Below, one piece after another: positions 8,071 to 61,632 of a stretch of 64,000 nt of DNA. Below the pieces are notes generated by a model. It was not told the origin of the DNA. It saw only the letters and a list, made by a program, of their open reading frames with translations, and searched no databases. The translations under genes were made by a program, and so were the position numbers. Position 1 is the first letter of the stretch. The number at the start of each line of letters is the position of its first letter. Source of the stretch: Chamaelirium japonicum (lineage: Eukaryota; Streptophyta; Magnoliopsida; Liliales; Melanthiaceae); the NCBI GenBank assembly GCA_947650365.1, contig OX393549.1, positions 92,754,956 to 92,818,955 of the forward strand. Direction: 5' to 3'.

Positions 8071-8090
8071 TGAAACGATGATCACCTAGC

Positions 8091-8122
<32 letters not shown>

Positions 8123-8262
8123 GCTAGGTTTTGGGAGAATGGATTAAGCCATCTCATTAGGCCAAGGGCCAAATATATATAGAGATACTAGAAAAGAACA
8201 AGGGTATCCTATACAGGTATCTACAGGTATCTGTATCTCAATGCTATACACTATCACTAACA
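8071..8262 (-). repeat. 5' LTR of the Copia element
   Basis: A 192-bp LTR, the partner of 2530-2715, with a longer GA tract. The target-site copy CATTC follows directly. Confidence 0.9.
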
Positions 8263-25619: not shown

Positions 25620-27290
25620 CAACTGATAGGATATTGGCGATCGGCCGACCGGTTGAGTTCAGCTGATCGGGTGTGGACAACCGATCAGTTAAAATCGACC
25701 GACTGGGTGTTGATGACCGATCGGTTGAAATTAACTGATCGGGCGATTGTAGCTGGTGGGATTTGACTGATCGGGTGAAAAAAAATATGTTTTTTGCCTG
25801 ATCGTTCGGAAATTTACCTGATCGTCTGCCTATCGATCGGGTGAAGTCTTCGACCGATCGGGTGTCCTTTACCGATCGGTCAAAGATCACCGATCGGGTG
25901 TTTTCAACCGGAGGGACTTTGGGTGATCAGGTAAAAAACTATGTTTTTTGCCCGATCGTTCGGAAATTCACTCGATAGCCTGCTTGTTGATCGGGTGAAG
26001 TCTTCGACCGATCGATCAAAGTTGACCGATCGGTGTCCTTTACCGATCGGTCAAAGATGACCGATCAACCGGTGGGACCTTGGGCGATCGGGTAAAAACC
26101 TATATTTTTTGACCGATCCTTTGGAAATTCACCCGATCGTCTGCCTGTCGATCGGGTGATGTCTTTTTGATCGATCGGTCAAAGTTGACTGATCGGGTAT
26201 TTTCAACCGGTAGAACTTTGAGCGATCAGGTAAAAAATTATGTTTTTTGCTCGATCATTTAGAAATTTATCCAATTGTCTGCCTGTCGATCGGGTAAAGT
26301 CTTCGACCGATCGGTCAAATATGATCGATTGGCTGTCTTTTATCGATTGGTCAAAGTTGACCGATCGGGTGGTTTCAACCGGTGGGACTTTGAGCGATCG
26401 GGTAAAAAACTATGTTTTTCGCCCGATCCTTTGGAAATTCACCCGATCGTCTGTCTGTCGATCAGGTGACGTCTTTTTGACCGATCGGGTATTTTCAACT
26501 GGTGGAACTTTGGACGATCGGGTAAAAAACTATATTTTTCGCCCGATCCTTTGAAAATTCACCCGATCGTCTGCTTGTCGATCGAGTGAACTCTTTTTGA
26601 CCGATAGGTCAAAGTTGACCGATTGGATATTTTCAACCAGTGAAACTTTGGGCGATCAAGTAAAAAACTATGTTTTTTGCTCGATCCTTTGGAAATTCAC
26701 CCGATCATCTGTCTATCGATCGGGTGAAGTCTTTTTGACCGATCGGGTATTTTCAACCGGTGGAACTTTGGACGATCGGGTAAAAAACTATGTTTTTCAC
26801 CCGATCCTTTGAAAATTCACCCGATCGTCTCCCTGTCGATCGGGTGAAGTCTTTTTGACCGATCGATCAAAGTTGATCGATCAAGTATTTTCAACCGGTG
26901 GAACTTTGGACGATCGGGTAAAAAACTATATTTTTCGTCTGATCCTTTGAAAATTCGCCGGATCCTTTGAAAATTCACCTGATCATCTGCCTGTCGATTG
27001 AGTGAAGTCTTTTTGACCGATCGGTCAAAGTCGATCGATCGGGTATTTTCAACTGGTTGAACTTTGAGCGATCGGGTAAAAAACTATATTTTTTGCCCGA
27101 TTATTTAGAAATTCACTCGATCGTCTGCCTGTCGATCGGGTGAAGTCTTTTTGATCGATTGGTCAAATTTGACCAATCAAGTATTTTCAAATGGTGGAAC
27201 TTTGAGCGATCAGGAAAAAAACTATCTTTTTCGGCCAATCCTTTGGAAATTCATCCGATCGTCTGCCTATCGATCTGGTGAAGTGGAGTT
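25620..27290. repeat. Degenerate tandem array rich in CGATCGG
   Basis: About ten units of irregular length (roughly 115-175 bp). Each carries CGATCGGGTGAAGTC, GACCGATCGGTCAAAGTTGA, TTTTCAACCGGTGG, a GGGCGATCGGGTAAAAAACTAT block and GGAAATTCACCCGATCGTC. The GATC palindrome is extremely frequent. Units are diverged, so the array is old. Reading frames within it have no domain. Confidence 0.85.
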
Positions 27291-27489: not shown

Positions 27490-28436
27490 GTCTTGGAGTT
27501 CATTTTTTTCATGCTGTCAGAAAAATTCTTGCCTTCTCTACTCTCTACTCTCTGTTCTTCGATCAGTCGTGATAGCCTCTGCAAGCCGCACCAGGAACAT
27601 TGTCCCCCCGAAGGTGAAGCCTTCACAGTGGGATGGGTGAAAGAAGGGGAAAGTCACTGCTAAGCCTTCATCACCGAAGATCGCATGAAAGGGCAAGGCG
27701 AAGGGTAGCCTCGGCAAGAGGCACTTAGGCGTCGAATTTACCTCTGTTCCTACTAAGCCAGAGCACATCCCGAAGTTTGACATCGTGCTGGGACCGTTGA
27801 AGCCTCTATCTGAGGAGTCTGTCTTCGAGTATAGGATCGGGAGGAAGCCCATTGATGCAAAAGGGGAGAAGTGGAAAAGGCTGATGGGGTTCTTCACTGA
27901 AGACGCCCATCATCCAGCGCTCGCGGGGGTAAAGGCTGCCTTTGGGATAGATAAGCGAGCTGTATACGCCGAGGTGGCCAGCAAGGAGAAGATAATGGGC
28001 ACCATCGTCATGATCGGGCAGCTCAACTGCGGGGTCTGTCTGCCACTGCCCCGGGCAGCTGACAGGAAACGTCTGGAGAATCATCTATGCCTTCTGCAGG
28101 GCTATAACAAATTACCAAGATAAGCTGAGGGCATGCTACTCAAACATTCCTGAAGGCGAGCAGGCTAGAATCGAGTTAAGGTACTTTTTCTATCACTACC
28201 AATGGGTATCGAGAAAGGATAGTCCATTCTTCAACTTGCATGGTGTCTCTACCCTCTACCCCGTCACCGACATAGTCACCTCAGATAAGCTCTACACAGA
28301 TTGGCGGATCTCCATTGGTACTCCATCTTCATAGCACAACAGATGCTGATCATGTTCAACAAAAAACGAGAAAAAGAAGGAAAGTAACATCCTAACCTCT
28401 AATAAAGAGGTAGGGCCGAAGAAATCGGGTGCATGT
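27490..28436 (+). other. Decayed coding-like stretch of unknown, probably transposon, origin
   Basis: A 112-codon open frame (27785-28123) lies in a longer region with codon-like composition, which continues in another frame as a YFFYHYQWVSRKDSPFF-like stretch near 28180-28235. I do not recognise the family. The region stops where the Gypsy element inserts at 28437, and the same host sequence resumes at 41411. A related direct repeat of the 28310-28436 part occurs at 42345-42690. Confidence 0.35.
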
Positions 28437-30681
28437 TGTAACACCCCGGTATTTTACGGATTTAGGCAACCCGTATAACATTGGGATGTTAGAAGAAAAA
28501 CTTGATATTAAAATAATTTTATCAAATATTAAAAACATTGGAGCTTCTTTTATTTATAATCATGTATTATATATATAAAAGTTTGATACATGTCTTGATA
28601 TAAAAACTTAAATGCCCATCTAGAATCTTTAATGCTTTACATCTCCGCCCCCACATCCTCGTAGTAAGGGGTGTATAGAGGATCTTCAATTCCCTCCGGA
28701 TCCTTCTCTTTTCACTCTTCCTCTTCCTCTTGTCCTGTACTGTAGGGTCAGTCTTTGTAGAAGGAATAAAACCTGTAGGGGGGTGAGTCTAATCCACTGA
28801 CTCACCTAATAAACCTAGTTTATTCAAGGTAAGATGAATGTACTGATAAGAACTAGTAAATATGATTATGGATAGCAATTTAACAATTATTAATCATCTG
28901 ATTCCCTTTTTGGCTCAAACTAGGGTAGGAATCTCAATCTTACCCGGGGACTTTTTGTCTAAAATAAGGCTAGCCCCAAACCTAGGTTTCTTTTAGTCAT
29001 AAGACTAGGCTAGCCCCATACCTAGGTTTCTTTTTGGCCTCAGCAAAGGCTAGCCCCATACCCAGGATTATCTTTTAGGCCCACAAGCCAGGGACAACCC
29101 CACATCCAGAATTATCTTTTAGGCCGGCAAGCCAGGGACAACCCCACACCCGATTAAATGATCAATATATCTTATAAATTCCACTAATGTATATCATATT
29201 ACCATCATTTCAATGATAAATACTTATCAAGAATTTACTAGGTTTAGTCCCCTACTTGAAGAGTCGTAGAATCTTTCACCCGATGAAGATGCCTTAGTAA
29301 GATCACGATCTGAAATATATATTTTTTATCTTTTTTTAGTTTTACATTTTATTTCACAAGGATCAAATGGAATCAAATTCCGATGTTGAATGTCTTAGGT
29401 TTTTAAAATTAAACTATTTTATTTAATACATTTTATCTTATAGGAGTATTTATGTCATTTTTAAAATAGTTTGAATTTATACCCATGTTGTAGGGTTTTT
29501 TATTCTGAAAACTTAGCCACAAACGGAACTCAATTTGGAGTTCGTTTGCTCTAGTTATGGCCAAAATAGCCAGGTTTTGCGTATTTAGAATGGGTGGTCT
29601 GCCTTTAGTAAAAAGGGTTGGTTGCATTTACTAATTGGGTTCAGTTTAACTATTTTCAGAGTGATTCTATCATAATGATAGTGGCTAGTTATTGGGCTTC
29701 AGCCCAGAACTGTTTTAGTGAGCCCAGCCCATAACTAAATGGGCTGGCCCATTTGTTTTGTTGGCTTTGGCTTAAAGCTGTGATTGTGAGCCCAGCCCAT
29801 AACTTAATAGGCTGGCCTATTTATTTTAATGGGATTCGGCCCAAAGCTATGATTGTGAGCCCAGCCAATAACTTAATGGGTTGGCCTATTTGTTTTAATG
29901 GGCTTCGGCCCAAAATAAAATAAATTGGCCTACTTTTTCGACCAATAGGCTGACCCGTGGAGCACGGTGGCGGTCGGTGGCGATTGTGGCGGCGACCGGC
30001 GCCGGCGACAGTGGCGACCGGCGGTGGGCATCGGTGGTGTACGGCGGTGACTGTAGCGGCGGATGCCGGTGGCGACCGATGACGGAAGGCTGCGACCAGT
30101 CAGATTGCGACGGCGACCGGCGACGAGCAGCGGTGAGCGACGACGGCGGGTGGTGGCTGTGGGTGGCTGGCAAGAGGGGCACGGTTTTTGAGGTAGTGGG
30201 CTTGAGTGCATAATCATAGAGGTTAGGGGGGTTATATAGGCCTTTTTTCGGAATACCAAGAGTCTAGGGCTTAATTGCAAACCGGCCTATTATTTTATTG
30301 ATTACTTCCGTTGAGCCACTCCAATTTTTATCGTTTTTATCTGGTCAGAACCCAAAGGGCTACAGCTGGTTGTTTCTTGGTCTTTCCCCCCTCCCACTAT
30401 ATATATTTATTTTCTGAAGTTTATAATGAATAATTACAAGGACTTTCTGATTAGAGAGGGAAGGTATAAAATTTTACGAATGTCTATAGTTCAAACCCTA
30501 CCTTGTCCATTTTTATTTCTTTAATTTTTAAATATTCTAAAAGTATTTAAAACATAAAAGTTTGTATACGGTTTTTGATCGTTTCAACAAGCCGGATGCA
30601 ATGGTCCTTAGTTGTATAAAAAAATTTGTATAAAAAATTATTATCTTAGGTTAGAATCATTAATATTTTTGGGATGTTACA
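28437..30681 (-). repeat. 3' LTR of the Gypsy element
   Basis: It contains a GGCCCA-rich minisatellite of about 68 bp at 29690-29920 with three copies and part of a fourth. The matching LTR has fewer copies. Confidence 0.88.
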
Positions 30682-31634: not shown

Positions 31635-33767
31635 TGTTGGAAATTAATCCATGGTAGAGGCTCGCAGCGGAAGCGATTTGGCGGTCGAAAGACCGTTCAT
31701 GGTGCACGTTACACCATTTAACTTTCATTAAAACTAAACTACATATATGTGCATGTGTATGTACGTGAATCGAACACACTAACGACAATCTAGCGCAATG
31801 ATTAACTAGCATACATGCAAATCATAATACTCGCTAGATCTACATGTTAGAGTACACATACCTTTCGACGGATCTTTTAACCGCGGAGAATTATCTTCTT
31901 TGTCGATGGAGACGGAAGATCGTTCGCGAAGATGCCGATGGTACGAATAGAGACGTTGCCTTCTTGTTCACCCGATCTCACACGATGCACGGAACGTCGC
32001 TCTCGGATCTCTGAGTGCCTCCGAAGAACGACCCTTCTCCTTCTTCAGAACTCCACGCGAGGAAGACGAAGTTGTAAGCGGGAAACGGGAGATGGATTCG
32101 GGAGAGAACTAGAGAGATGAGAGGGGAGGGGGGTTCGGTTTTTTTATCAATATGGCCAGCCCCCTATAGCCCTTTATATAGGGCCGGCCTACCCCCTTCG
32201 ATAAGGATCCAAGGGGATAAAGACCTCCCACAATTATCTCTCTATTATCTCCTTTTTTATCTCTCCTTGTATTTATCCGTTTTCCTACTTTTTATGGCTC
32301 GACTTTATCCGTTTCAAAGCCCTATCCCTATCTATATGGTCGGCCCTATAGATGAGGGATTCTCATCCCTACATCATAGGGCCGGCCCTAGCAAGGTGCC
32401 CCACTACTAGGATCGGCCAACAGTGAGGTCCGACAGAGTGAGGTTTTTACCAAAACGCCCTGACACCTCATTTTGACCATTTCTAGCGTGCGATACCTAG
32501 CGGCCATTACTTAAGTGATTTCTACTAGTTACCTACTATTAACTGAGGTCATCGAAGGGTGCCTCTAGAAAAGTCAACTAGTCAACTCGCAGCACTTCCC
32601 GGTGCATCGCACCTGTGCAGCGAAGTTCACTTATGGCTAGGGATTACTACATGCGACTCTGTACTAGTCTCGGGCATAACCCTTAGTACTCGTATGTAGT
32701 TACACATCTACCGTGCTCTAGTGCCAAGCACACACGGAGCGTATACTTCTTTCTTCCTCTTAATGCTAATGATGTTCCGAGGAGATGGTTCAAGAACCGT
32801 ACATAATGTTGATAAGGTGGAACCATCAAGGACCGGGGTTCATGGCTTCCAACTCAAGCTCGATCGACACACTACCCGAGTGTACCATCGATCCTCTGAG
32901 CTCGAGTTAACCTACGTAGCCACCCAGAGTGCGACGCAGGCTGCACTCCAATTCACCCAGACTTACTATGTTCTCCATCATACCCCTGCTCTCCGCTTAG
33001 TAGTGGTAAACCCGCTGTCCCTCCACTTGATGCCATGATTCACTTCGAGCGGTGGAGACTACCGTCAGACTCGAATGATCATATGACTTGGTTCCTTCCA
33101 GGTTGACCTATACATCATACCTCTGATTACCCCGTCGAGTAATCTAACCCGGTCAACAGTCAAACTGATGACCACCAGACCTGGGTTTGGTACAGTGTAA
33201 GTCACACCAAGGAACGCACCTCCCTTCAGGGGTGTGGATGGCCTGCAGGAGTGACACGCTAATGCAACGCCAGCCGGGTAACCCGGTACACCGTGGTTTT
33301 GGATCACTGCATACGGATCCTCACACATTGGTGCGCCAAAGCACCACGCAACTGGTTAGTCCATCAGACGTGGTTCCTCAGGGTTTAGGACCGTTTTACC
33401 CTAAGCAAAAACACGGCTTAGTGTACCAGTGTCTGCTCACTGATCTGTACACCGTATTAGTTCCGTTCAGCCACAGACACTGTGCCTGGTGATGACCATG
33501 GTGAAGACATCCCATGAACTGTCATCGCCAACAGCTTAACATGATGAGGCGACCAACCTGATCATAGCTGCGAACTGATTTAGATTATATGGGACCAATC
33601 CACTCAGTCTTCAACTCAGTGGACTACCATATAACCATGGCTCTCTGTTCTTAAAAGAACACGTGACTATGTTACGCACCTATATGCATCTCATATAATA
33701 ATAACTATCAATCTTTATTAGACCAAAACATAAAGTTTTACAAGCTTAGAACACATCAATCCTAACA
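31635..33767 (-). mobile_element. Solo LTR, 2133 bp, inside the Gypsy element
   Basis: TGTTGGAAATTAATCC...AATCCTAACA with a perfect 5-bp target duplication ATTTA (31630-31634, 33768-33772) and no internal region. The same LTR family appears at 62250-64000 (very similar) and 46742-49049 (diverged). Only the last of these keeps a primer site and internal sequence, of Copia type. Confidence 0.9.
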
Positions 33768-33875
33768 ATTTATAGGATCCAAGAACTGAGTCAGTAAATA
33801 AGACAATAAATTCTCAGGTTTGAAAATAAAATTTTTCTGACTTTCTATACTCACACATCAATTGTACCTGGCTAC

Positions 33876-36595: not shown

Positions 36596-39282
36596 GTATT
36601 CACCAGGAACCACAGTGATAAAAAAATAGAGTTGGCCCGAGAGTCGGGGAAATTTCATTGATTTAGTTTGGACGGTTCAAATATTGGAATCCGAAAAAAA
36701 AAACTTGATCTTCTTATCATACGAGGGTCTAAGGCGTTAACTCTAAAAATTTAAATTGAGAACAATCATTGAAAATCTCTTGGTTCTGACAGCCGTCGAG
36801 AAACTTATTACTGGCTACATAAACTTTATTCCTAAAGGAGGTTGCAAAAGGTAGATGTTCATAACTTATAATTAGTGTATCCCTTGGTATTTAATATAGA
36901 GTTTTAGGAATAACACTAAGCGTTGCCGTGATGACCAAGGTGTATCCTGTTGGTTCTGTCTTCAGTTGAATATGAACGTATGATTTGTGCTGGGGTCCAA
37001 AGTAATTCATGCAAAACTTTTAAAAATTGAGAATTGATCCTACAAATTTAAGTCTTTTCGTAGTTACTGCTATATTATTTGAAAGAAAAATAGTTCGTAC
37101 CTTTGATGACATCATTGTCAGTCGATACAGCGAAAGTCTTGCCAGGTACTCTCTGAGCAGAGTGATCCACATATCCTTGTTGGACAGGACGAAAAGAAGG
37201 CCTAGATTGTTGATTAACCTCCAGACGAGGACAATAGTGTTTGAGATGATCTAGAGCTCCACATGTAAAACAAGCTTGAGGTCTAAAAATATTAAAGGGC
37301 CTTCCCTTGGAGTTGGGAACTCTTGAGTTTTCAGTTTTTTGTTTTCTTTCACCGGATGAGAGTTCCTCTTGGTCTTATTTTTCTCAATTATCTTTCGGGT
37401 ATCTTCCCATTCTCGTTCTGCCACTTGCGCGGTTTGAACTAAATCCCCGTAAGTACGGATACGAAGTATTGCCAGTTTTGTGCGAATCTGGGGATTCAAA
37501 TCTTGCTCAAATTTTTTGGATTTTAATTCTTCTATAGCTACCAAGTAATGAGCGAATCGGGGTAATTCTGTAAACTTTGCCTTGGTACATCATTTTTTTT
37601 TTCATACCATCCCACCAGAAGTTTCGTTTAAGGTCTTGATACATCTTATTCCCCCCCCCCCCCCCCGGTGAATAGGAAATAATTTTTGACCGATGAGCTT
37701 CTGTTAATATATCTTCTCGTAGATGGGAGCATTAGTGACTGCTTATCTCCCCCGAAATCTCAGTCCATTGTCTGTGCCAAGACTCCAGTTCTTTATTGCA
37801 TTGTTTGTGCCAATACTCCAGTTCTCTATTACTTCCCCTTTTCTAACTTGTATCGGATTTTCTAAAGTTTTGAATTTGACATCTGTACTTCGATTACCCC
37901 TTTTTATCATATCTAGTTAAACTTTAAGTAAGCTTGTGATGAGTATTTTTGTATGACCAGGTCAAAGCATTCTAAGGTGCAAGTCCACTACCACTTATCA
38001 ACTCTAACGTTGGCCCGAGGGTAAAGGTAATTTAATTAATTAAGTTTTTTTTCCCAAAAACTTCAAACTATTTGACTCTAATCATTTAGGATGCAAAGGT
38101 AAACCATCATGATCTCGAAGTCAAAATCCTAGGTGGCTCTACATTGGCAGTTGGCAGCCCTTTTTCCCATGGGATGGTTCCACCTAACCCTAAGCAACCC
38201 ATTCCTAGGTAGCCCTTTCCTTTGAACTCGAATTCGAGATGTGATGATTAATCCCGATCTTAATTATCACCGAACATGTTGTAAATTCTAAGCCAACTAT
38301 ATACTTGAAATTAGACCTCGATGCACTAATGATTCAACCCAGATCTTACCATGTTTTTGTAAAAATTAATTACTAGGAGATAACTTAGTATTCTACATTC
38401 AGCTCGACTATATTTAATACTTTAATTATTTGTGTCAATCATTTGTATGTTACTAATCGTTTGAGGTTGGAGTCCGTTGGACTTCTCAACTATAGCTTTC
38501 ATCTGAGAAGTATTTTAATTTCGTAGGGGCTATCATGGATGCTTTATTTTTTCGAGTAATTGGCGTATATAAATCTAATTCTTGAGTTAACTTACTCTTA
38601 TCAAGATTGATTAACCTAGATATGGTCCTAATACTTTGGATAGGTTTCAGATTGTACAGGAAAGGGGTCTTAGTCTTTGATACACGATTTTTTTTTCCGC
38701 TAAGCTTACATTAATAAAAGGTTTAAGAATAGGTTCTTTCTGATGATCATTGAACATTATTTCTGCTCAGATACTATAGTAACGTGTTCTCAAAAAGAGG
38801 TCTTAGGAGATAGGAACTTAAATTAAGTTACTCCTTAGAGATTTTTTACCCTAATCGAGTTACTATGAGGGTTTATAACACCTTCTTATATTTCAATATC
38901 GTTACGAAGTAGCATCCTAAAATTCTAGCTAGTTTCCAATTCTATTTAGGTGATCATATGTTCTAATTTTGATACACCTATATTGTCTTCTAGGTTGACT
39001 AACTCCTCAGCGTCTAATGTTATTGTCTCAGGCCTATGCAACGAAGGCTATTATAACATATTTAAAAGAGAGATCCTAAATTTAAGTTCAGGTATATATA
39101 CTTTGTTCTAGCGATCAAGTGTCTTAGGTCATCAATGTCACAATCATCTAGGGCTAGGTGTACCTAGATCTAATTCACATGAACCTAACTTGTGCTCTAG
39201 GTTAAATGACTATCATACTGATATCGTTCTTGCTAATAAATTTTAATTCCTAGGACCTATTACCTAGGCTCTGATACCAAGT
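36596..39282 (-). pseudogene. Gypsy gag remnant and leader
   Basis: A gag fragment near 37250-37560 (minus) shows a retrotransposon-gag pattern (LNPQIRTKLAILRIRTYGDL). The rest up to the primer site is leader or decayed gag sequence. It is a fossil. Confidence 0.6.
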
Positions 39283-41410
39283 TATAACACCCCAGTATTT
39301 TACGGACTTAGGTAACCCGTATAACACTGGAGTGTTAGAAGAAAAACTTGATATTAAAATAATTCCATCAAATATGGAAAACATGGGAGCCTCTTTATTT
39401 ATAACCATGTATTATATATATAAAAGTTTGATACATGGCTTGATATAAAAACTTAAATGCCTATCTAGAATCTTTGATGCTTCACATCTCCGCCCCCGCA
39501 TCCTCGTAGTAGGGAGTGTATAGCGGATCTTCAATTCCCTCTAGATCCTTCTCTTTTTGCTCTTTCTCTTCTCCTTGACCTGTAGGGTCAGTCTTTGTAG
39601 AGGGTATAAAACCTGTAGGGGGTGAGTCTAATCTACTGACTCACCTAATAAACCTAGTTTATTCAAGGTATGATGAATGTACTGATAAAAAATAGCAAAC
39701 ATGATTATGGATAGTAATTTAACAGTTATTGATCATCCGATTCTCTTTTTGGCTCAAACCAGGGTAGAAATCTCAATCTTACCTGGGGACTTTTTGTTTA
39801 AAACAAGGCTAGCCACATACCTAGATTTCTTTTAGTCATAAGACTAAGCTAGCCCCGCACCTAGGTTTCTTTTTAGCCTCAGTCAGGACTAGCCCCACAC
39901 CTAGGATTATCTTTTAGGCCCACAAGCTAGGGACAACCCCACACCCAGGATTATCTTTTAGGCCCGCAAGTCAATGATAGCCCCATACCCGATTAAATGA
40001 TCAATACATCTTATAAATTCCACTAATCCATATCATATTACCATCATTTCAATTACAAATACTTATCAAGAATTTACTGGGTTTAGTCCCCTATTTGAAG
40101 AGTCGTAGAATCTTTCACCCGATGAAGATGCCTTAGTAAGCTCACGTTCTGAAATATATTTTTTATCTTTTGTTAGTTTTATATTTTATTTCACAAGGAT
40201 CGGACAGAATCAAATTCCGATATTGGATGCCTTAGGTTTTTACAATTAAACTAATTTATTTAATATATTTTATCTTATAGGGGTATTTAGGTTATTTTTA
40301 AAATAGTTTGAATTTATACCCATGTTGTAGGGTTTTTCATTCTGAAAACGTGGCCGCAAACGAAACTCAATTCGGAGTTCGTTCGCTCTAGTTATTGCCA
40401 AAATAGCTGGGTTTAGCGGATTTAGAATGGGCAGTCTGCCTTTAGTAAAATGGGTCGGTTGCCTTTACTAATTGGATTCAGTTTAACTATTTTCAGAGTG
40501 ATTCTATCATAATGATAGTGGTTAGTTATTGGGCTTCGACCCAGAACTATTTTAGTGAGCCCAGCCCATAACTAAATGGCCTGGCCCATTTGTTTTAATG
40601 GGCTTCGGCCTAAAGCTGTGATTGTGAGCCCAGCCCATAACTTAATAGGCTGGCCCATTTGTTTTAACGAGCTTCAGTCCAAAATAAAATAAATTGGCCT
40701 ACCTCTTCGGCCAATAGGCTGATCCGTGGAGCACGGTGGCGGTCGGTGGCGGACGGCAGCAACTGCAGCGGATTGCGGCGGAGATCGGCGGCGGGTATCG
40801 GCGACGTACGGTGGCGACTGCAGCGGCGAATGTCTGCGGAGACCGACGACGGCAGGCGGCAGCGACTACAGCGATGACCGGCGGCGAGCGCGGCTATGGG
40901 TGGCTGAGGTGGCTGGCAAGAGGGGCACGATTTTCGAGGTAGTGGGCTTGAGTGCAGAATCATAGAGGTTAGGGGGGGTTTTATAGGCCTTTTTTCGGAA
41001 TATCAAGAGTCTAGGGTCTTAATTACAAACCGACCCATTATTTTACTGATTATTTTCGTTGAGCCACTCCAATTTCTATTGTTTTCATCCGGTCAGAACC
41101 CAAAGGGCTACAACTGGTTGTCTCTTGGTCTTTCCCCCCTCCCACTACATATATTTATTTTCTGAAGTTTATAATAAATAATTACAAGGACTTTTTGGCT
41201 AGAGGGGGGAAGGTTCAAACCCTATCTTGGTCATTTTTATTTCTTTAATTTTTAAATATTTTAAACCTGCTTAAAACATAAAAGTTTGTATACGGTTTTT
41301 GATCGTTTCAATGAGCTAGATGCTATGGTCCAATCTGATTTTTGTTTTGAAATTTGTACAAAAAATTTATTATCTTAGGTTAAAATCATTAATATTTTTG
41401 GGATGTTACA
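39283..41410 (-). repeat. 5' LTR of the Gypsy element
   Basis: The partner of 28437-30681. The internal GGCCCA minisatellite (40530-40690) has two copies and a partial one. The primer binding site lies directly to its left. Confidence 0.88.
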
Positions 41411-50959: not shown

Positions 50960-51227
50960 CAAGGTACATGTGTATGTCAGAATGCTAGATAAATGTTTTT
51001 TGTTTGTTACTCTCCTGTTAAATATCTTTTTTAAAATATTTTATTTTGAAAAAAAATTCTAAAAAAAAGCACTGCTATTTGAACATACCAGAGATTTACT
51101 CAGACATACTGCTGACGTGGGGGGCATCGGCCCACTTGCCCACTGCATTGGCCATTGCACCAAGCGCTGGCCGATGCCCCATGTCTGCCTATGTCCGCGA
51201 TTATGTCCCATTTTATGTCTAAATAGC
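50960..51227. other. Single-copy flank upstream of the exon-1 array
   Basis: No gene is visible. An inverted pair, GGGGCATCGGCC and GGCCGATGCCCC, lies at 51120-51181. The original promoter of gene 2 may lie here. No clear TATA box was found. Confidence 0.4.
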
Positions 51228-51339
51228 GTTTCCCCCCAAAAACAGAGTTGAGGGAACGAAGCTCCACTCCCCTGTGGCCTCTATCCATTCCTCCGCCCCC
51301 AGTCGTTTACCACCCGCCACTCATTCTCTTCCGCTTCAC

Positions 51340-51519
51340 ATGACGAACGCCCTGTGCTTCAGCTGTGTGAATTCCATCAGCTGCCCCGCCAAATCATGTA
51401 TTCCCCCCTCTGTCCTCTCCCCTGTATCCAGCATCTCCTTCCAAAACCCTAGCCCTCATCTCCATCCCCCAAAACCCGCAGCTGGTCGCGCCTCGAGCTC
51501 CAGGTTTCATTCCCTCAAG
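51340..51519 (+). CDS. Exon-1 copy of unit 1 (transit peptide)
   Basis: 60 codons starting MTNALCFSCVNSIS and ending FHSLK before a GT donor. It lacks the hairpin upstream and lies about 7.3 kb from exon 2. This may be the ancestral first exon, since its upstream flank is single copy. Confidence 0.55.
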
Positions 51520-52293
51520 GTCGATACCTTCATTTCTCGGCACTCTCTTATGAATCTCGACCTATTTAAAGAGAAAATTGTGCTGCTTTTATGTTAAATT
51601 TAGTTTGTGGGAATTGGCCTTAAAAAAAGGATCGAATGAGAATTTAGTTTTGCAAAATCGGATTATTTATAGGTTTGCTCACAAATTTATTAGCATCTTT
51701 TTTCAGTGTAGATTTTTATTTCAACAATTTGGAAAGAACGGACCCAAAACTTTTAATTTATCAACAACGGACTTATACGGCAATTTAATTACCATATAGA
51801 CAGTTTAATTGATACGTGCCCCGATATATGGCAGTTTGACTGTCATATAACCTTATACAGTAGTTTGATTGTCTTATAAAGACCAACGACTATTTATACG
51901 GCAGTCTGTCTGATTGCCGTATAAAGATCCCAATGACTAATCTTGACTTTATACAGCAGTCTCGCGGGAAGTAAACAGAGTTTACCCCCCCAAAAAAAAT
52001 TGAGGGAAGAAAGCTCCAAAAGTACGATTTTGTTCCAACCTTATTAAAGAGGTTGGATGTTCCCGGTCTCTCTCATTGGTCCATATCGAGGGCTTTTGGT
52101 CATTTCATACTGGTTATCATGGTGAAATGACCAAAAGCCCTCGATATGGACCAATGAGACAGACCGGGAACATCCAACCTCTTTATGGAGGTTGGAACAA
52201 AAGCGTACTCGAAGCTCCACTCCCCATGTGGCCTTTATCTTTTCCTCCGCCCCCTGTCGTTTACCACCCACCTCTCATTCTCTTCCGCTTCAC

Positions 52294-52473
52294 ATGGCGA
52301 GCGCCCTGTGCTTCAGTTGTGTGAATTCCATCAGCTGCCCCGCCAAATCATGTATTCCCCCCTCTGTCCTCTCCCCTGTATCCAGCATCTCCTTCCAAAA
52401 CCCTAGCCCTCATCTCCATCCCCCAAAACCCGCAGCTGGTCGCGCCTCGAGCCCCAGGTTTCATTCCCTCAAG
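52294..52473 (+). CDS. Exon-1 copy of unit 2
   Basis: 60 open codons. It differs from the majority by MASAL at the start and SSPR before the end. ATG and donor are intact. Confidence 0.5.
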
Positions 52474-53247
52474 GTCGATACCTTCACTTTCTCGGCACTC
52501 TCTTATGAATCTCGACCTATTTAAAGAGAAAATTGTGCTGCTTTTATGTTAAATTTAGTTTGTGGGAATTAGCCTTAAAAAAAGGATCGAATGAGAATTT
52601 AGTTTTGCAAAATCGGATTATTTATAGGTTTACTCACAAATTTATTAGCATCTTTTTTCAGTGTAGATTTTTATTTCAACAATTTGGAAAGAACGGACCC
52701 AAAACTTTTAATTTATCAACAACGGACTTATACGGCAATTTAATTACCATATAGATAGTTTAATTGATACGTGCCCCGATATATGGCAGTTTGACTGTCA
52801 TATAACCTTATACAGTAGTTTGATTGTCTTATAAAGACCAACGACTATTTATACGGCAGTCTGTCTGATTGCCGTATAAAGATCCCAATGACTAACCTTG
52901 ACTTTATACAGCAGTCTCGCGGGAAGTAAACAGAGTTTCCCCCCCAAAAAAAATTGAGGGAAGAAAGCTCCACGAGTACGATTTTGTTCCAACCTTATTA
53001 AAGAGGTTGGATGTTCCCGGTCTCTCTCATTGGTCCATATCGAGGGCTTTAGGTCATTTCATACTGGTTATCATGGTGAAATGACCAAAAGCCCTCGATA
53101 TGGACCAATGAGAGAGACCGGGAACATCCAACCTCTTTAAGGAGGTTGGAACAAAAGCGTACTCGAAGCTCCACTCCCCATGTGGCCTTTATCTTTTCCT
53201 CCGCCCCCTGTCGTTTACCACCCACCTCTCATTCTCTTCCGCTTCAC

Positions 53248-53427
53248 ATGGCGAACGCCCTGTGCTTCAGCTGTGTGAATTCCATCAGCTGCCCCGCCAA
53301 ATCATGTATTCCCCCCTCTGTCCTCTCCCCTGTATCCAGCATCTCCTTCCAAAACCCTAGCCCTCATCTCCATCCCCCAAAACCCGCAGCTGGTCGCGCC
53401 TCGAGCTCCAGGTTTCATTCCCTCAAG
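53248..53427 (+). CDS. Exon-1 copy of unit 3
   Basis: 60 open codons with the majority sequence (MANALCFSCVNSIS...). ATG and donor are intact. Confidence 0.5.
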
Positions 53428-54201
53428 GTCGATACCTTCACTTTCTCGGCACTCTCTTATGAATCTCGACCTATTTAAAAAGAAAATTGTGCTGCTTTTA
53501 TGTTAAATTTAGTTTGTGGGAATTAGCCTTAAAAAAAGGATCGAATGAGAATTTAGTTTTGCAAAATCGGATTATTTATAGGTTTGCTCACAAATTTATT
53601 AGCATCTTTTTTCAGTGTAGATTTTTATTTCAACAATTTGGAAAGAACGGATCCAAAACTTTTAATTTATCAACAACGGACTTATACGGCAATTTAATTA
53701 CCATATAGACAGTTTAATTGATACGTACCCCGATATATGGCAGTTTGACTGTCATATAACCTTATACAGTAGTTTGATTGTCTTATAAAGACCAACGACT
53801 ATTTATACGGCAGTCTGTCTGATTGCCGTATGAAGATCCCAATGACTAACCTTGACTTTATACAGCAGTCTCGCGGGAAGTAAACAGAGTTTCCCCCCCA
53901 AAAAAAATTGAGGGAAGAAAGCTCCACGAGTACGATTTTGTTCCAACCTTATTAAAGAGGTTGGATGTTCCCGGTCTCTCTCATTGGTCCATATCGAGGG
54001 CTTTTGGTCATTTCATACTGGTTATCATGGTGAAATGACCAAAAGCCCTCGATATGGACCAATGAGAGAGACCGGGAACATCCAACCTCTTTAAGGAGGT
54101 TGGAACAAAAGCGTACTCGAAGCTCCACTCCCCATGTGGCCTTTATCTTTTCCTCCGCCCCCTGTCGTTTACCACCCACCTCTCATTCTCTTCCGCTTCA
54201 C

Positions 54202-54381
54202 ATGGCGAACGCCCTGTGCTTCAACTGTGTGAATTCCATCAGCTGCCCCGCCAAATCATGTATTCCCCCCTCTGTCCTCTCCCCTGTATCCAGCATCTCC
54301 TTCCAAAACCGTAGCCCTCATCTCCATCCCCCAAAACCCGCAGCTGGTCGCGCCTCGAGCTCCAGGTTTCATTCCCTCAAG
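54202..54381 (+). CDS. Exon-1 copy of unit 4
   Basis: 60 open codons with two replacements, CFNCV for CFSCV and QNRSP for QNPSP. ATG and donor are intact. Confidence 0.5.
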
Positions 54382-55156
54382 GTCGATACCTTCACTTTCT
54401 CGGCACTCTCTTATGAATCTCGACCTATTTAAAGAGAAAATTGTGCTGCTTTTATGTTAAATTTAGTATGTGGGAATTAGCCTTAAAAAAAGGATCGAAT
54501 GAGAATTTAGTTTTGCAAAATCGGATTATTTATAGGTTTGCTCACAAATTTATTAGCATCTTTTTTCAGTGTAGATTTTTATTTCAACAATTTGGAAAGA
54601 ACGGACCCAAAACTTTTAATTTATCAACAACGGACTTATACGGCAATTTAATTACCATATAGACAGTTTAATTGATACGTGCCCCGATATATGGCAGTTT
54701 GACTGTCATATAACCTTATACAGTAGTTTGATTGTCTTATAAAGACCAACGACTATTTATACGGCAGTCTGTCTGATTGCCGTATAAAGATCCCAATGAC
54801 TAATCTTGACTTTATACAGCAGTCTCGCGGGAAGTAAACAGAGTTTACCCCCCCAAAAAAAATTGAGGGAAGAAAGCTCCACGAGTACGATTTTGTTCCA
54901 ACCTTATTAAAGAGGTTGGATGTTCCCGGTCTCTCTCATTGGTCCATATCGAGGGCTTTTGGTCATTTCATACTGGTTATCATGGTGAAATGACCAAAAG
55001 CCCTCGATATGGACCAATGAGAGAGACCGGGAACATCCAACCTCTTTATGGAGGTTGGAACAAAAGCGTACTCGAAGCTCCACTCCCCATGTGGCCTTTA
55101 TCTTTTCCTCCGCCCCCTGTCGTTTACCACCCACCTCTCATTCTCTTCCGCTTCAC

Positions 55157-55336
55157 ATGGCGAACGCCCTGTGCTTCAGCTGTGTGAATTCCATCAGCTG
55201 CCCCGCCAAATCATGTATTCCCCCCTCTGTCCTCTCCCCTGTATCCAGCATCTCCTTCCAAAACCCTAGCCCTCATCTCCATCCCCCAAAACCCGCAGCT
55301 GGTCGCGCCTCGAGCCCCAGGTTTCATTCCCTCAAG
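55157..55336 (+). CDS. Exon-1 copy of unit 5
   Basis: 60 open codons with SSPR near the end, as in unit 2. ATG and donor are intact. Confidence 0.5.
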
Positions 55337-56093
55337 GTCGATACCTTCACTTTCTTGGCACTCTCTTATGAATCTCGACCTATTTAAAGAGAAAATTGTG
55401 CTGCTTTTATGTTAAATTTAGTTTGTGGGAATTAGCTTCTAAAAAAGGATCGAATGAGAATTTAGTTTTGCAAAATCGGATTATTTATAGGTTTGCTAAC
55501 AAATTTATTAGCATCTTTTTTCAGTGTAGATTTTTATTTCAACAATTTGGAAAGAACGGACCCAAAACTTTTAATTTATCAACAGCGGACTTATACGGCA
55601 ATTTAATTACCATATAGATAGTTTAATTGATACGTGCCCCGATATATGGCAGTTTGACTGTCATATAACCTTATACAGTAGTTTGATTGTCTTATAAAGA
55701 CCAACGACTATACGGCAGTCTGTCTGATTGCCGTATAAAGATCCCAATGACTAATCTTGACTTTATACAGCAGTCTCGCGGGAAGTAAACAGAGTTTACC
55801 CCCCCAAAAAAAATTGAGGGAAGAAAGCTCCACGAGTACGATTTTGTTCCAACCTTATTAAAGAGGTTGGATGTTCCCGGTCTCTCTCATTGGTCCATAT
55901 CGAGGGCTTTTGGTCATTTCTATGAAATGACCAAAAGCCCTCGATATGGACCAATGAGAGAGACCGGGAACATCCAACCTCTTTATGGAGGTTGGAACAA
56001 AAGCGTACTCGAAGCTCCACTCCCCATGTGGCCTTTAACTTTTCCTCCGCCCCCTGTCGTTTACCACCCACCTCTCATTCTCTTCCGCTTCAC

Positions 56094-56273
56094 ATGGCGA
56101 ACGCCCTGTGCTTCAGCTGTGTGAATTCCATCAGCTGCCCCGCCAAATCATGTATTCCCCCCTCTGTCCTCTCCCCTGTATCCAGCATCTCCTTCCAAAA
56201 CCCTAGCCCTCATCTCCATCCCCCAAAACCCGCAGCTGGTCGCGCCTCGAGCTCCAGGTTTCATTCCCTCAAG
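56094..56273 (+). CDS. Exon-1 copy of unit 6
   Basis: 60 open codons with the majority sequence. The upstream hairpin has a shortened 3-nt loop. Confidence 0.5.
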
Positions 56274-57034
56274 GTCGATACCTTCACTTTCTCGGCACTC
56301 TCTTATGAATCTCGACCTATTTAAAGAGAAAATTGTGCTGCTTTTATGTTAAATTTAGTTTGTGGGAATTAGCCTTAAAAAAAGGATCGAATGAGAATTT
56401 AGTTTTGCAAAATCGGATTATTTATAGGTTTGCTCACAAATTTATTAGCATCTTTTTTCAGTGTAGATTTTTATTTCAACAATTTGGAAAGAACGGACCC
56501 AAAACTTTTAATTTATCAACAACGGACTTATACGGCAATTTAATTACCATATAGATAGTTTAATTGATACGTGCCCCGATATATGGCAGTTTGACTGTCA
56601 TATAACCTTATACAGTAGTTTGATTGTCTTATAAAGACCAACGACTATTTATACGGCAGTCTGTCTGATTGCCGTATAAAGATCCCAATGACTAATCTTG
56701 ACTTTATACAGCAGTCTCGCGGGAAGTAAATAGAGTTTACCCCCCCAAAAAAAATTGAGGGAAGAAAGCTCCACGAGTACGATTTTGTTCCAACCTTATT
56801 AAAGAGGTTGGATGTTCCCGGTCTCTCTCATTGGTCCATATCGAGGGCTTTTGGTCATTTCTATGTAATGACCAAAAGCCCTCGATATGGACCAATGAGA
56901 GAGACCGGGAACATCCAACCTCTTTATGGAGGTTGGAACAAAAGCGTACTCGAAGCTCCACTCCCCATGTGGCCTTTATCTTTTCCTCCGCCCCCTGTCG
57001 TTTACCACCCACCTCTCATTCTCTTCCGCTTCAC

Positions 57035-57214
57035 ATGGCGAACGCCCTGTGCTTCAGCTGTGTGAATTCCATCAGCTGCCCCGCCAAATCATGTATTCCC
57101 CCCTCTGTCCTCTCCCCTGTATCCAGCATCTCCTTCCAAAACCCTAGCCCTCATCTCCATCCCCCAAAACCCGCAGCTGGTCGCGCCTCGAGCTCCAGGT
57201 TTCATTCCCTCAAG
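57035..57214 (+). CDS. Exon-1 copy of unit 7
   Basis: 60 open codons with the majority sequence. The upstream hairpin has a 3-nt loop, as in unit 6, so units 6 and 7 are sisters. Confidence 0.5.
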
Positions 57215-57989
57215 GTCGATACCTTCACTTTCTCGGCACTCTCTTATGAATCTCGACCTATTTAAAGAGAAAATTGTGCTGCTTTTATGTTAAATTTAGT
57301 TTGTGGGAATTAGCCTTAAAAAAAGGATCGAATGAGAATTTAGTTTTGCAAAATCGGATTATTTATAGGTTTGCTCACAAATTTATTAGCATCTTTTTTC
57401 AGTGTAGATTTTTATTTCAACAATTTGGAAAGAACGGACCCAAAACTTTTAATTTATCAACAACGGACTTATACGGCAATTTAATTACCATATAGACAGT
57501 TTAATTGATACGTGCCCCGATATATGGCAGTTTGACTGTCATATAACCTTATACAGTAGTTTGATTGTCTTATAAAGACCAACGACTATTTATACGGCAG
57601 TCTGTCTGATTGCCGTATAAAGATCCCAATGACTAATCTTGACTTTATACAGCAGTCTCGCGGGAAGTAAACAGAGTTTACCCCCCCAAAAAAAATTGAG
57701 GGAAGAAAGCTCCACGAGTACGATTTTGTTCCAACCTTATTAAAGAGGTTGGATGTTCCCGGTCTCTCTCATTGGTCCATATCGAGGGCTTTTGGTCATT
57801 TCATACTGGTTATCATGGTGAAATGACCAAAAGCCCTCGATATGGACCAATGAGAGAGACCGGGAACATCCAACCTCTTTATGGAGGTTGGAACAAAAGC
57901 GTACTCGAAGCTCCACTCCCCATGTGGCCTTTATCTTTTCCTCCGCCCCCTGTCGTTTACCACCCACCTCTCATTCTCTTCCGCTTCAC

Positions 57990-60900
57990 ATGGCGAACGT
58001 CCTGTGCTTCAGCTGTGTGAATTCCATCAGCTGCCCCGCCAAATCATGTATTCCCCCCTCTGTCCTCTCCCCTGTATCCAGCATCTCCTTCCAAAACCCT
58101 AGCCCTCATCTCCATCCCCCAAAACCCGCAGCTGGTCGCGCCTCGAGCTCCAGGTTTCATTCCCTCAAGGTCGATACCTTCACTTTCTCGGCACTCTCTT
58201 ATGAATCTCGACCTATTTAAAGAGAAAATTGTGCTGCTTTTATGTTAAATTTAGTTTGTGGGAATTGGCCTTAAAAAAAGGATCGAATGAGAATTTGGTT
58301 TTGCAAAATCGGATTATTTATAGGTTTTATCACAAATTTACTAGCATCTTTTTTCATGGTAGATTTTTTTTTCAACAATTTGGAAAGAACGGACCCAAAT
58401 CTTTTAATTTATCAACAACGGACTTATACGGCAATTTAATTACCATATAGACAGTTTAATTGATGCGTGCCCCGATATATGGCAGTTTGACTGTCGTATA
58501 ACCTTATACGATAGTTTGACTGCCTTATAAAGACCAACGACTATTTATATGGTTGTCTGTCTGATTGCCTTATAAAGACCCCAATGACTAATCTTGACTT
58601 TATACGGCAATCCGGATTGCCGTATAAAGGCTAACGGGTAGTATCGCGGGAAGTAAACAACTTTTTTTTTTTTTTTTCTGATACTGCAGTTGAATTGCCA
58701 TGTAAGTCTGTTGCTGCTAAATTAAAAAATTTGGGTCCGTTACTTCTAAATAAATTAATTTTTAATCTATTTTTTAAAAATTGGTTTTTTTTTAAGTCGT
58801 GTTTTTCTTAATGACAGGCCACGGACAGTGACCAGAGCAAGAGTACAAAAATAAATACCATTGTTTGTGCTGATTGTGAGGGAAATGGTGAGTGAATTAT
58901 GCTTTTATATGTTTTTTTTTGTATTGTTTTCTTTTGAAACACGGAAATCTTATAGTTCACAATTTTTTTTGGGCTGTTAAATTTCATCCCAATCGGCTAT
59001 GTCTCTTTCTTTAGTATTTTGTAATAATTAGAGGAGCTGAAAGGTGAGAGTTGCGCATGTATGGTAATGGGATAATCTCTGTGTTGGTTTTGCTTTCGCA
59101 TAGAGGCTGATATTTCATTGAATAGTGTGTATTGATGATATTAGGTCCAACATCTAAATATCTATATCAAAATTATTGGATAGCCCTTTTCAACCTTTTC
59201 CGATCAGAGTGGAATTCGTTAACTATATTCACATCAAGGCACAGATCAAAATACGATTTTGGTGTAAATTTTGAAACCCTCAGAAACAGTTATTCACGCG
59301 AAAATATCATGGCTTTTGCCGTTGCCGGGGGGGGGGGTTAGGGGGGTTGAGGGAAGCATATGTGAACCTTGCTATACATGCAGCTCCAATACATGTTTTG
59401 TCTAATTGTTTCTTAACTGCACCTGCCTTTAATAACTTTCATGAAGGTTTTTCTTTGTGATTTCTAACTTTACTAGAAGAGAGATTTCTTTAAAGTTATT
59501 CACGTTCTGCTGAATAAGAGGGAGGGGTGTCACTTTCTACCACATAGGAGGGGGGGCTTCGCGTTCTGTTGAGTAGAAAGGAGGGGGTTGTTTTCTGCTT
59601 AGTAGGAATTGGGGGGGGGGGAGGGCACTTCACTTTCTACTGTGTAGGAGGGGGCATCATGTTTTGCTGAGTAAGAGGGAAGGGCATTACTTTTTGCTCA
59701 GTAGGTCCGAGAGGCCTCATGTTTTGCTAAATAAGAGCGGGGGGATCCACTTTCTCCTGAGTGTGATCTTTTCCGATGTAGAGGTTCTCGGCAATCTAAT
59801 CCGCCTTGCTCTCGAGCTTTTTCGGGCAGTTGATTGTGGCGACAAAAATGATACACTCGATCACTTCGATGATGTCGGAGTTGCAGCAGCAGAAGAACTT
59901 CCTCTAATAATTAAATGTTCTAGATGAACTTAACGTGTCGACATCTTTCTTACTTCTCCCTTCTCTTTTCTCTCTTTTTCCTCTCTCCCCTTAAATAGGC
60001 CGGGGGGGATCCATTAATAAAACCCATGAGTCCACATGTCAACTCCACTCAATCGATACCAAGCCGTATGGGCTAATACCGGTTTGACTCGGCCGATACG
60101 GACCGATACTGACAGGTATGGGTTGATATGGGTATGGTTTCGGTTAAAGGAGGGGTATCGGTTCGGTTTGGCCTAAACCCGAGTCGTACCGGCTGGTATG
60201 ACTCGATATCGGTCGAGTTTTAAAACCATGCTTTGGAAACAACTGCTATGAAAGCATATTTGGTCATTTTGGTCTCCTCAAATGCAAGGGTCCGATGGTG
60301 CATTTTGGTTTTGTTCCTTTAAAATATGATTTTATAGAAATTTTCCTAATCAAAGGGTGTGCTGCTTTTTTTTTTTTCTAGGATAACCCACCGATTTTTT
60401 GCTCTTTTTTAATATAGTTTAAGGTTTGGTCCCTTCCCCTTATGAATGTTGAGGACATTAATGATCCTCATTTCTTGGAATATTTTATTTTGGTTATTTA
60501 CTTGTTTTCTTATGTAGGTTCAGCCCTCTTGAATTCCATCTGGGATTATTTAATTTTTGCAGATTAATTTTTTTGTCGGGCCTAAATGCTTCTTTTTTTT
60601 TTGGGCTGGTGGGAACTAGAAGTCAACCAAAATGGGGGGGGGGGGGGGGGTGAAATTTCCTTCTTTTTTTTATTTTGGTGCATGCAGTTTTTAATGAAAA
60701 TTATAAGAGATAAAACTTGTTTACTATTTTTTACTATTATAAATTGTGATTTGTTGAATTACCTAAAATCTTGTCAAGTGCACTACTACACTGGGTGCAT
60801 GGACTCCCACTGATGCCGCCTAAGATTATGAGAGGGAGTAGCTACCGATGACAGCCTGATCGCCTTGATAGCCTTTGCTCTGCACGGACACCCAATCACT

Positions 60901-61632
60901 AGCCAAATGATATCAGTATGTTACATAGCCATCCAAGCCACAAAGGGCAAGCTGGTTGGATTAGTAAAAGATAGTAAGCCATTCCATTAAACATGGTAAA
61001 TAGTCGCTTCAATCGGAGTGAATAAGTTATTATTTTCCTGCCTGAAAAGTGGCACCACATGTGGTAATTTAGCTCATGTATGTGGAAAAGAAATACTATC
61101 CATATTTTGATGTTGCAGAAAAGCCTGCTTGTAATATTACCCAATGATGATGATTAGGAAATGGTCCTAAAAAGGACTTCTAGATGAACAGGAGTAATTA
61201 ATACCGAGTTAAACATATAATAGGTCGAAGCCTCCGGTTATGATTTTGGTTGTCATTTCAAGCAAGAAAAAATTTAGGGTTATTTTGACTTTGCCCCCCA
61301 AATTTTGCCTTGAATTAGACTTTACCCCCCATATTTTCATTAATTAGACTTTACCCCCCAAAACTAACTGTTCCGTCAGCTCACCATAACCCAAAAATTT
61401 ATGAGGCTTATTTCTATTTTTCAATCAAACTCATTCCTACTAAGAGCAACATTATTCGTTAGCCCATGTTTTAGTTATATTAGTATTTTTTACACAATAT
61501 GTTACCATTACTGACTATGTTGCCTACTTTGATAGGTGCAATTTTGTGCACCCAATGTAAAGGAAATGGGGTGAATTCGGTCGATCACTTCAATGGCCAA
61601 TTCAAAGCCGGTGCATTATGTTGGCTTTGCAG
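57990..61632 (+). CDS. Small plastid DnaJ-type zinc-finger protein, exons 1-3 (3' end beyond the window)
   Basis: Exons 57990-58169 (or any of seven upstream copies), 58818-58887 and 61536-61632 join in frame through GT-AG introns. Residues 1-60 (MANVLCFSCVNSIS..., rich in Ser, Pro and Arg, almost no acidic residues) look like a chloroplast transit peptide. The mature part has CxxC pairs at 77/80 (VCADCEGNG), 88/91 (LCTQCKGNG) and 112/115 (LCWLC), the cysteine-rich zinc-binding fold of DnaJ without a J domain. From memory, it closely resembles the plant 'chaperone protein dnaJ-related' group, whose members end in a further CxxCxGxG exon; BSD2 and LQY1 are more distant plastid relatives. That last exon is not in the window, because an LTR fills the next intron from 62250. 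The likely role, by analogy, is thiol or chaperone work in plastid protein assembly. Confidence 0.8.
58598..58629. repeat. Perfect 32-bp palindrome
   Basis: CTTTATACGGCAATCC is followed directly by its reverse complement. It is the best preserved of a series of TATACGGCA/TGCCGTATA inverted motifs in the intron part of every unit. Confidence 0.9.
59505..59762. repeat. G-rich minisatellite
   Basis: About six degenerate copies of a 35-45-base unit (TTCTGCTGAGTAGGAGGGGG.. type), with G runs of 4-10 in each. It may form G-quadruplexes on the sense strand of intron 2. Confidence 0.7.
61278..61390. mobile_element. Half copy of the GGTTATTT foldback MITE
   Basis: It matches the left arm of 15729-15916 (GACTTTGCCCCCCAAATTTT, then two TTAGACTTTACCCCCC blocks) but lacks the right arm. 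Confidence 0.75.

Follow-up and report, generated by a model that had tools for sequence, protein, structure and literature searches.

The BSD2 locus and its first-exon array

The window analysed here, a stretch of 64,000 nucleotides from Chamaelirium japonicum, covers C1:92754956-92818955 of an assembly of 1.52 Gb in 3253 contigs. It carries a gene that by its alignments is BSD2, a plastid zinc-finger chaperone of Rubisco assembly, and the 5' end of this gene is repeated in eight head-to-tail units that lie in register at 51228-58659. The array looks real and is unusual. Start-to-start spacing of the units is 955, 954, 954, 955, 937, 941, and 955 bp, in agreement with an earlier note on this DNA that had described eight tandem units of about 0.95 kb (eight copies were found, at a spacing of 937-955 bp). 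Such an array cannot be due to chance, and chance or a misread repeat was ruled out by the eight copies in register.

Exon 1 measures 180 nt and 60 codons in every unit, is open and in phase 0, and ends at the donor CAAG/GTCGAT (8/8 copies; the slash marks the splice border), so that the ATG, 60-codon exon and phase-0 donor ascribed to each unit by the earlier note are found in all of them. The ATG positions of copies 1 to 8 are 51340, 52294, 53248, 54202, 55157, 56094, 57035, and 57990, respectively. The features of the locus are the following, where MITE stands for miniature inverted-repeat transposable element.

51060-51235, no strand assigned: old dispersed repeat that adjoins unit 1 on the left; identity to its relatives mostly 70-78%
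51228-51977, + strand: unit 1, with exon 1 at 51340-51519 (N-terminus MTNALC); 5' part diverged and without the MITE
51978-52932, + strand: unit 2, with MITE and exon 1 copy 2 at 52294-52473
52933-53886, + strand: unit 3, with MITE and exon 1 copy 3 at 53248-53427
53887-54840, + strand: unit 4, with MITE and exon 1 copy 4 at 54202-54381
54841-55791, + strand: unit 5, with MITE and exon 1 copy 5 at 55157-55336
55792-56732, + strand: unit 6, with MITE (loop deletion of 14 bp) and exon 1 copy 6 at 56094-56273
56733-57673, + strand: unit 7, with MITE (the 14-bp loop deletion of unit 6) and exon 1 copy 7 at 57035-57214
57674-58659, + strand: unit 8, with MITE and exon 1 copy 8 at 57990-58169; 3' part diverged and 31 bp longer than that of the other units
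57710-57906, + strand: MITE of unit 8, as a search match that includes a few flanking bases; member of a dispersed family
58378-58780, no strand assigned: dispersed element within intron 1, its left end set by repeat matches and its right end deduced from inverted arms
58818-58887, + strand: BSD2 exon 2, single copy, acceptor AATGACAG, accepting exon 1 in phase 0
61536-61632, + strand: BSD2 exon 3, single copy
73271-73349 in window numbering (L012:9271-9349): BSD2 exon 4, 9.3 kb past the window end

The gene was identified with a query of 116 amino acids made up of exons 1-3, with exon 4 left out. The whole query, transit region included, aligned with the BUNDLE SHEATH DEFECTIVE 2 chain of PDB 9ci1 (E 2.1e-23), and from residue 66 onward it aligned with the 81-residue BSD2 chain of PDB 6ekb, beginning at chain residue 6 (E 1.1e-21). 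Both chains are presumably from Arabidopsis. The same query scored 80.1 bits against Pfam PF25436 BSD2_CRD, for which the cut-off is 27. A zinc-finger gene other than BSD2 was ruled out, as six weaker Pfam matches (DnaJ, ZZ, and others) stayed under their own cut-offs; the single plastid zinc-finger protein of the earlier note is thus given its name by PDB chains and Pfam. Four CxxC pairs (CADC, CTQC, CWLC, and CGNC), which make eight cysteines, are present in 8/8 joined translations. AtBSD2 holds two zinc atoms with four cysteines apiece (PMC5859369). As with Arabidopsis At3g47650 and maize Bsd2, the likeness is that of one protein family over the whole length, including the transit region.

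In the longer chain, 9ci1, exon 1 aligns with the N-terminal residues that precede the portion covered by 6ekb. The border of exons 1 and 2 lies between residues 60 and 61, near the start of the 6ekb alignment, so exon 1 should be nearly all transit peptide, and is predicted to encode a plastid transit peptide upstream of the mature domain. Exons 2 and 3 are single-copy, as had been claimed for the downstream exons, and each of the eight exon 1 copies joined to exons 2-4 yields an uninterrupted translation of 141 amino acids (8/8). The joins themselves are predicted; no retrocopy that would prove the junction of exons 1 and 2 was seen among the assembly matches, which fall exon by exon.

Number of BSD2 genes

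The exon 1-3 query gave 11 matches in the whole assembly, with all 52 of 52 candidates scored. These are the eight first exons, exon 2, and exon 3 at C1, and one diverged exon 1 on C10 with 56% over 50 residues. A query of the zinc-finger part with an assumed C-terminus gave five matches, namely C1 exons 2, 3, and 4, an exon-4-like stretch on C10, and one match at chance level (E 8.9).

L014:5452-5660 and L015:754-834: BSD2-like locus on C10, with exon 1-like and exon 4-like parts

No credible match to exons 2-3 was found at C10 in 30 kb free of N. The best protein scores were E 1.1 and 2.2; at the DNA level the best were E 0.017, for 19 bp on the opposite strand, and E 0.31. The C10 exon 1 is without the GT that serves as donor in the C1 copies and retains just the CAG/GT that lies upstream of it, so either of the two may be the ancestral donor. 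A complete second BSD2 gene on C10 was therefore ruled out, and the locus is apparently a broken paralogue, which leaves the C1 gene as the only complete BSD2 found in the assembly; a further copy in unassembled sequence is possible. One BSD2 gene each is named for Arabidopsis and maize in a review table (PMC5859369).

Decay of the C1 gene, with the plant relying on another BSD2 outside the assembly, would fit introns that are swollen by transposable elements, including a long terminal repeat (LTR) element in intron 3. Yet none of the four exons is damaged, the mature domain is conserved, and the only other locus found is without exons 2 and 3. Of the explanations considered, this one is regarded as the least probable.

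Unit edges and transposon-derived DNA

The left edge of the units is the right end of the old dispersed repeat, where the matches of its relatives reach query position 276 (~51235). The right edge of the array at 58659 falls within the dispersed element of intron 1, whose inverted arms at 58349-58448 and 58681-58780 share 72% identity. Most repeat matches to a probe of intron 1 begin at query position 195, and its first ~160 bp match only the eight units among the 40 scored of 324 candidates. Native to a unit are exon 1, at most ~118 bp before its ATG, and the initial portion of intron 1. The upstream region that had been ascribed to each unit stands for these ~118 bp, while the remainder is transposable element sequence and intron.

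The MITE occupies one common site in units 2-8 (7/7), with ~84 bp of native upstream DNA downstream of it. In unit 1 the site is single and empty (AAGCTCCAC), and this unit also holds the intron 1 start and a truncated intron element. The inserts measure 201 bp, or 187 bp in units 6 and 7, with the target copy counted. They are flanked by copies of AAGCTCCAC, the left copy in unit 2 being AAGCTCCAA. The MITE family is dispersed in the assembly, where 40 of 1869 candidates were scored and the scored matches include six of the seven array copies, that of unit 7 falling outside them. Target-site duplications of 9 bp were read by eye among 25 non-array copies with flanks (e.g., L046, L050 with one mismatch, and L051), and we take them to indicate a Mutator-like class.

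Folding was applied to the unit 8 copy (57717-57913), which forms a single long hairpin at -157.5 kcal/mol, compared with a mean of -50.5 for 200 shuffles (z -24.3). Such a hairpin is what a paramutation-like silencing by copy number would draw on, in which small RNAs from the seven MITEs, arrayed in and before intron 1, would direct methylation to the promoter region of BSD2, as at maize b1. The b1 locus has seven repeats of 853 bp (PMC3798267), and in both systems a gene is linked to seven or eight units of ~0.85-0.95 kb arranged head to tail. The b1 repeat is unique to its locus, whereas in the BSD2 array this holds only for the part that is not transposon-derived (among the same 40 scored candidates), and the transposon-derived parts of the units are dispersed elsewhere in the assembly. 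Moreover, the b1 repeats lie ~100 kb upstream, outside the gene, where they mediate expression and paramutation (PMC3798267), whereas the BSD2 unit is the gene's own first exon. Maize seedlings die when BSD2 is lost (PMC5859369), so that selection should act against any strong silencing where BSD2 has a single complete copy. Silencing of this kind is considered very unlikely.

Sequence variation and history of the array

Exon 1 is identical among copies 3, 6, and 7, which hence share one 60-residue peptide. Counted from the ATG, the variants of the other copies are +4A in copy 1, +8G, +24T, and +160C in copy 2, +23A and +110G in copy 4, +160C alone in copy 5, and +11T in copy 8. Unit 6 has a private base at -55. 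From the ATG onward, unit 1 and the consensus of units 2-7 are alike except at 3 of 638 sites; before the ATG, and with the MITE excluded, 11-14 of 121-122 sites set unit 1 apart from units 2-8. Unit 8 shows 2 mismatches to the same consensus in the 300 sites from +1 to +300, and 22 in the 339 sites that follow. Pairwise divergence among units 2-7 is 0.43-1.58% with a mean of 1.16%; for scale, the LTRs of the intron 3 element are 96.9% identical over 1750 bp. Units 6 and 7 are the closest pair, with 4 of 941 sites differing. Several site pairs in units 2-7 show four-gamete conflicts, and single pairs of this kind could stem from recurrent mutation.

A homogenised interior between old outer edges is the expected trace of unequal exchange and conversion. 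The array appears to have evolved stepwise, the probable relative order being a duplication, an insertion of the MITE into the right-hand copy, and then amplification of the MITE-bearing unit. In the first step, the BSD2 5' end would have been duplicated in tandem with both breakpoints in transposon-derived DNA, the duplicated piece being exon 1 with ~118 bp of DNA before it and ~460 bp of intron 1 after it. Growth to eight units would have followed through unequal exchange and gene conversion, a mechanism suggested by the anatomy, the edges, and the mosaic variants.

Near-identical repeats of 0.95 kb are a recognised cause of copy-number error, and with exon 1 identical in copies 3, 6, and 7, an assembler could have expanded or mis-joined a smaller number of true units. 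Assembly error is nonetheless made unlikely by the private substitutions in most units, the 14-bp deletion common to the adjacent units 6 and 7, and the old, diverged outer edges, which are not something an assembler would invent. In addition, no stray exon 1 copies were found on other contigs among the 52 scored candidates, and the window is free of N. An artefact is accordingly judged highly improbable.

The substitutions in the array show no apparent sign of constraint. Among units 2-7, 5 of 180 exon sites and 15 of 453 intron sites are variable (P = 1.0), and six of the seven exon changes across all units are non-synonymous (expected 530:190, P = 0.68). The observation that all eight exons are open with intact donors was correct in the earlier note. 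Of random changes, 4.9% would damage the start, frame, or donor, and seven changes would all be harmless with P ~0.70, so the open frames are no evidence for or against use. Selection as read from eight open frames was therefore rejected.

Splicing and transcription start

Each copy has a 5' splice site and, as a first exon, should have no 3' splice site of its own. Later copies should therefore leave with intron 1, and only the first transcribed copy would stay, spliced to exon 2. Intron 1 is only 648 nt if transcription begins at copy 8. As exon 1 is predicted to encode almost only a cleavable transit peptide, the same mature BSD2 would result whichever copy is used, to judge from the alignment with mature BSD2. 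With an unchanged mature protein, the array would be nearly neutral for the protein and free to vary in number.

Promoter words were scanned in 420 bp per copy, where such words are weak evidence. Units 2-8 contain TATAAA between -360 and -419, plus CCAAT words at -143 and from -350 to -364; every one of these lies in transposon-derived DNA. Unit 7 has an extra TAAATA at -308, and unit 1 has TAAATA at -120 and -321. Upstream of the ATG, likeness to the C10 relative extends to -45 by BLAST and to about -80 in a global alignment read by eye.

These words bear on the view that the units are eight working promoters, all spliced to the single exon 2, with copy number setting the dosage or robustness of BSD2. 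This would be a many-copy version of Arabis alpina PEP1, an FLC orthologue in which two tandem first exons, PEP1a and PEP1b, with parts of promoter and intron 1, share the same exon 2 (PMC3527215, PMC7927791). Here as there, exon 1 was copied with parts of its flanks ahead of a single exon 2 onward, and the products of the different first exons are near-identical, by prediction at BSD2. The PEP1 transcripts have separate starts 61-190 bp before the ATG as shown by 5' rapid amplification of cDNA ends (RACE), and both first exons are used (PMC3527215); ~118 bp might therefore hold a core promoter. The ATG, open frame, and identical donor in all eight copies, as well as the TATAAA-like and CCAAT words in units 2-8, are in line with such promoters. 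However, the native upstream DNA of at most ~118 bp per unit is split by the MITE in seven of eight copies, leaving ~84 bp downstream of it. The TATAAA words lie 360-419 bp before the ATG within transposon-derived DNA, the TATA-like word of the C10 relative (TATATA, at about -239) falls beyond the stretch retained in the units, and there is no sign of constraint. The eight alternative promoters proposed in the earlier note are thus not borne out by the upstream DNA, and eight working promoters appear unlikely. Similarly doubtful is a working copy-number rheostat, in which several first exons feed BSD2 and the number of units together with the seven MITEs sets the capacity for Rubisco assembly; it would act through added start sites or small-RNA control.

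The reading that is probable on balance is that BSD2 is a genuine gene whose 5' end, once duplicated in tandem, was amplified to eight units, which evolve near-neutrally and of which one or few start transcription. Most likely, transcription starts at one or few copies and not at eight equal promoters. The amplification may have no function and may well be neutral.

Several points weigh against this reading. When the eight units are taken together, 7 of 180 sites vary in the exon and 36 of 452 in the intron, a lower variability of the exon (P = 0.079); much of this contrast comes from the old right edge of unit 8. The apparent neutrality has little power, being based on seven exon changes. The donor AAG/GTCGAT is far from the textbook consensus, and an alternative GT lies 16 nt upstream (CCAG/GTTTCA), which together with an alternative AG in exon 2 keeps the frame. 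Finally, CTTCAG at +18 to +23, preceded by a pyrimidine-rich 5' leader, is a candidate cryptic 3' splice site that could let later copies enter as internal exons. It is intact in seven of eight copies (51357-51362 in unit 1, and in units 2, 3, and 5-8), copy 4 having CTTCAA with A at +23. Splicing to this site would add 157 nt, with an apparent shift of the frame.

Other repeats in and near the window

Intron 3 of BSD2 contains a putative LTR retrotransposon with LTRs of ~2.1 kb at 62250 to ~64385 and L012:6156-8286. Its LTR family is abundant in the assembly (40 scored of 4623 candidates), and another copy of the LTR is found at 31635-33768. A Copia-type retrotransposon has left remains at 3381-6205 on the - strand, which comprise gag_pre-integrs, rve, and RVT_2, with an internal tandem duplication of 258 bp at 4822-5337. 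The stretches 2530-2715 and 8071-8262 are 95% alike and may be the ends of these remains. A degenerate tandem array at 25695-27284 has nested periods of ~120-258 bp and many GACCGATCGGTCAAAG-like words. Two direct repeats of ~2.1 kb at 28432-30681 and 39278-41410 are 82-90% identical and lie ~11 kb apart.

Comparison with known systems and significance

PEP1 and the BSD2 array differ in scale and in kind. PEP1 has two copies of a ~2-kb segment that lie 6.3 kb apart with diverged upstream regions, whereas BSD2 has eight at ~0.95 kb. The starts of PEP1 were mapped by 5' RACE, whereas the ~118 bp of native upstream DNA at BSD2 were read from the genome alone. PEP1 is a transcription factor and BSD2 a plastid chaperone. 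The statement in the earlier note that no such case had been described is qualified by this two-copy plant precedent in another kind of gene (PMC3527215), while no case with eight copies or with a plastid protein was found among the papers listed. By their titles and abstract openings, none of the listed papers, among which few subscription journals were covered, pointed to first exons of this kind in more than two copies in a plant gene. In a systematic study of alternative first exons in plants, the words "duplicat" and "tandem" are absent from the text (PMC2174465). Copy-number variants of barley HvFT1 differ in their numbers of promoters and first exons, with whole transcribed regions multiplied (PMC4047512).

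The first exons of the vertebrate UGT1 and protocadherin clusters encode differing parts that specify substrates or adhesion. These clusters place many first exons before constant exons (PMC3325998, PMC1885805), and the BSD2 array resembles them in its tandem open first exons with donors ahead of one constant exon set. In the vertebrate clusters each first exon has its own promoter (PMC3325998). Unlike theirs, the BSD2 first exons are nearly identical and are predicted to encode a removable transit peptide; with 7 of 180 sites variable over eight copies, no diversification of the protein among first exons was found.

To our knowledge, the BSD2 array would be the largest first-exon array known in plants. 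It sits on a gene whose loss kills maize seedlings (PMC5859369). The array would illustrate a route by which a cassette of leader and first exon turns into a tandem repeat with the mature protein unchanged. As several copies carry diagnostic bases, ordinary RNA-seq can tell much about the first exon used, which brings within reach of a direct test whether duplicated 5' ends add start sites or are passengers that stay silent.

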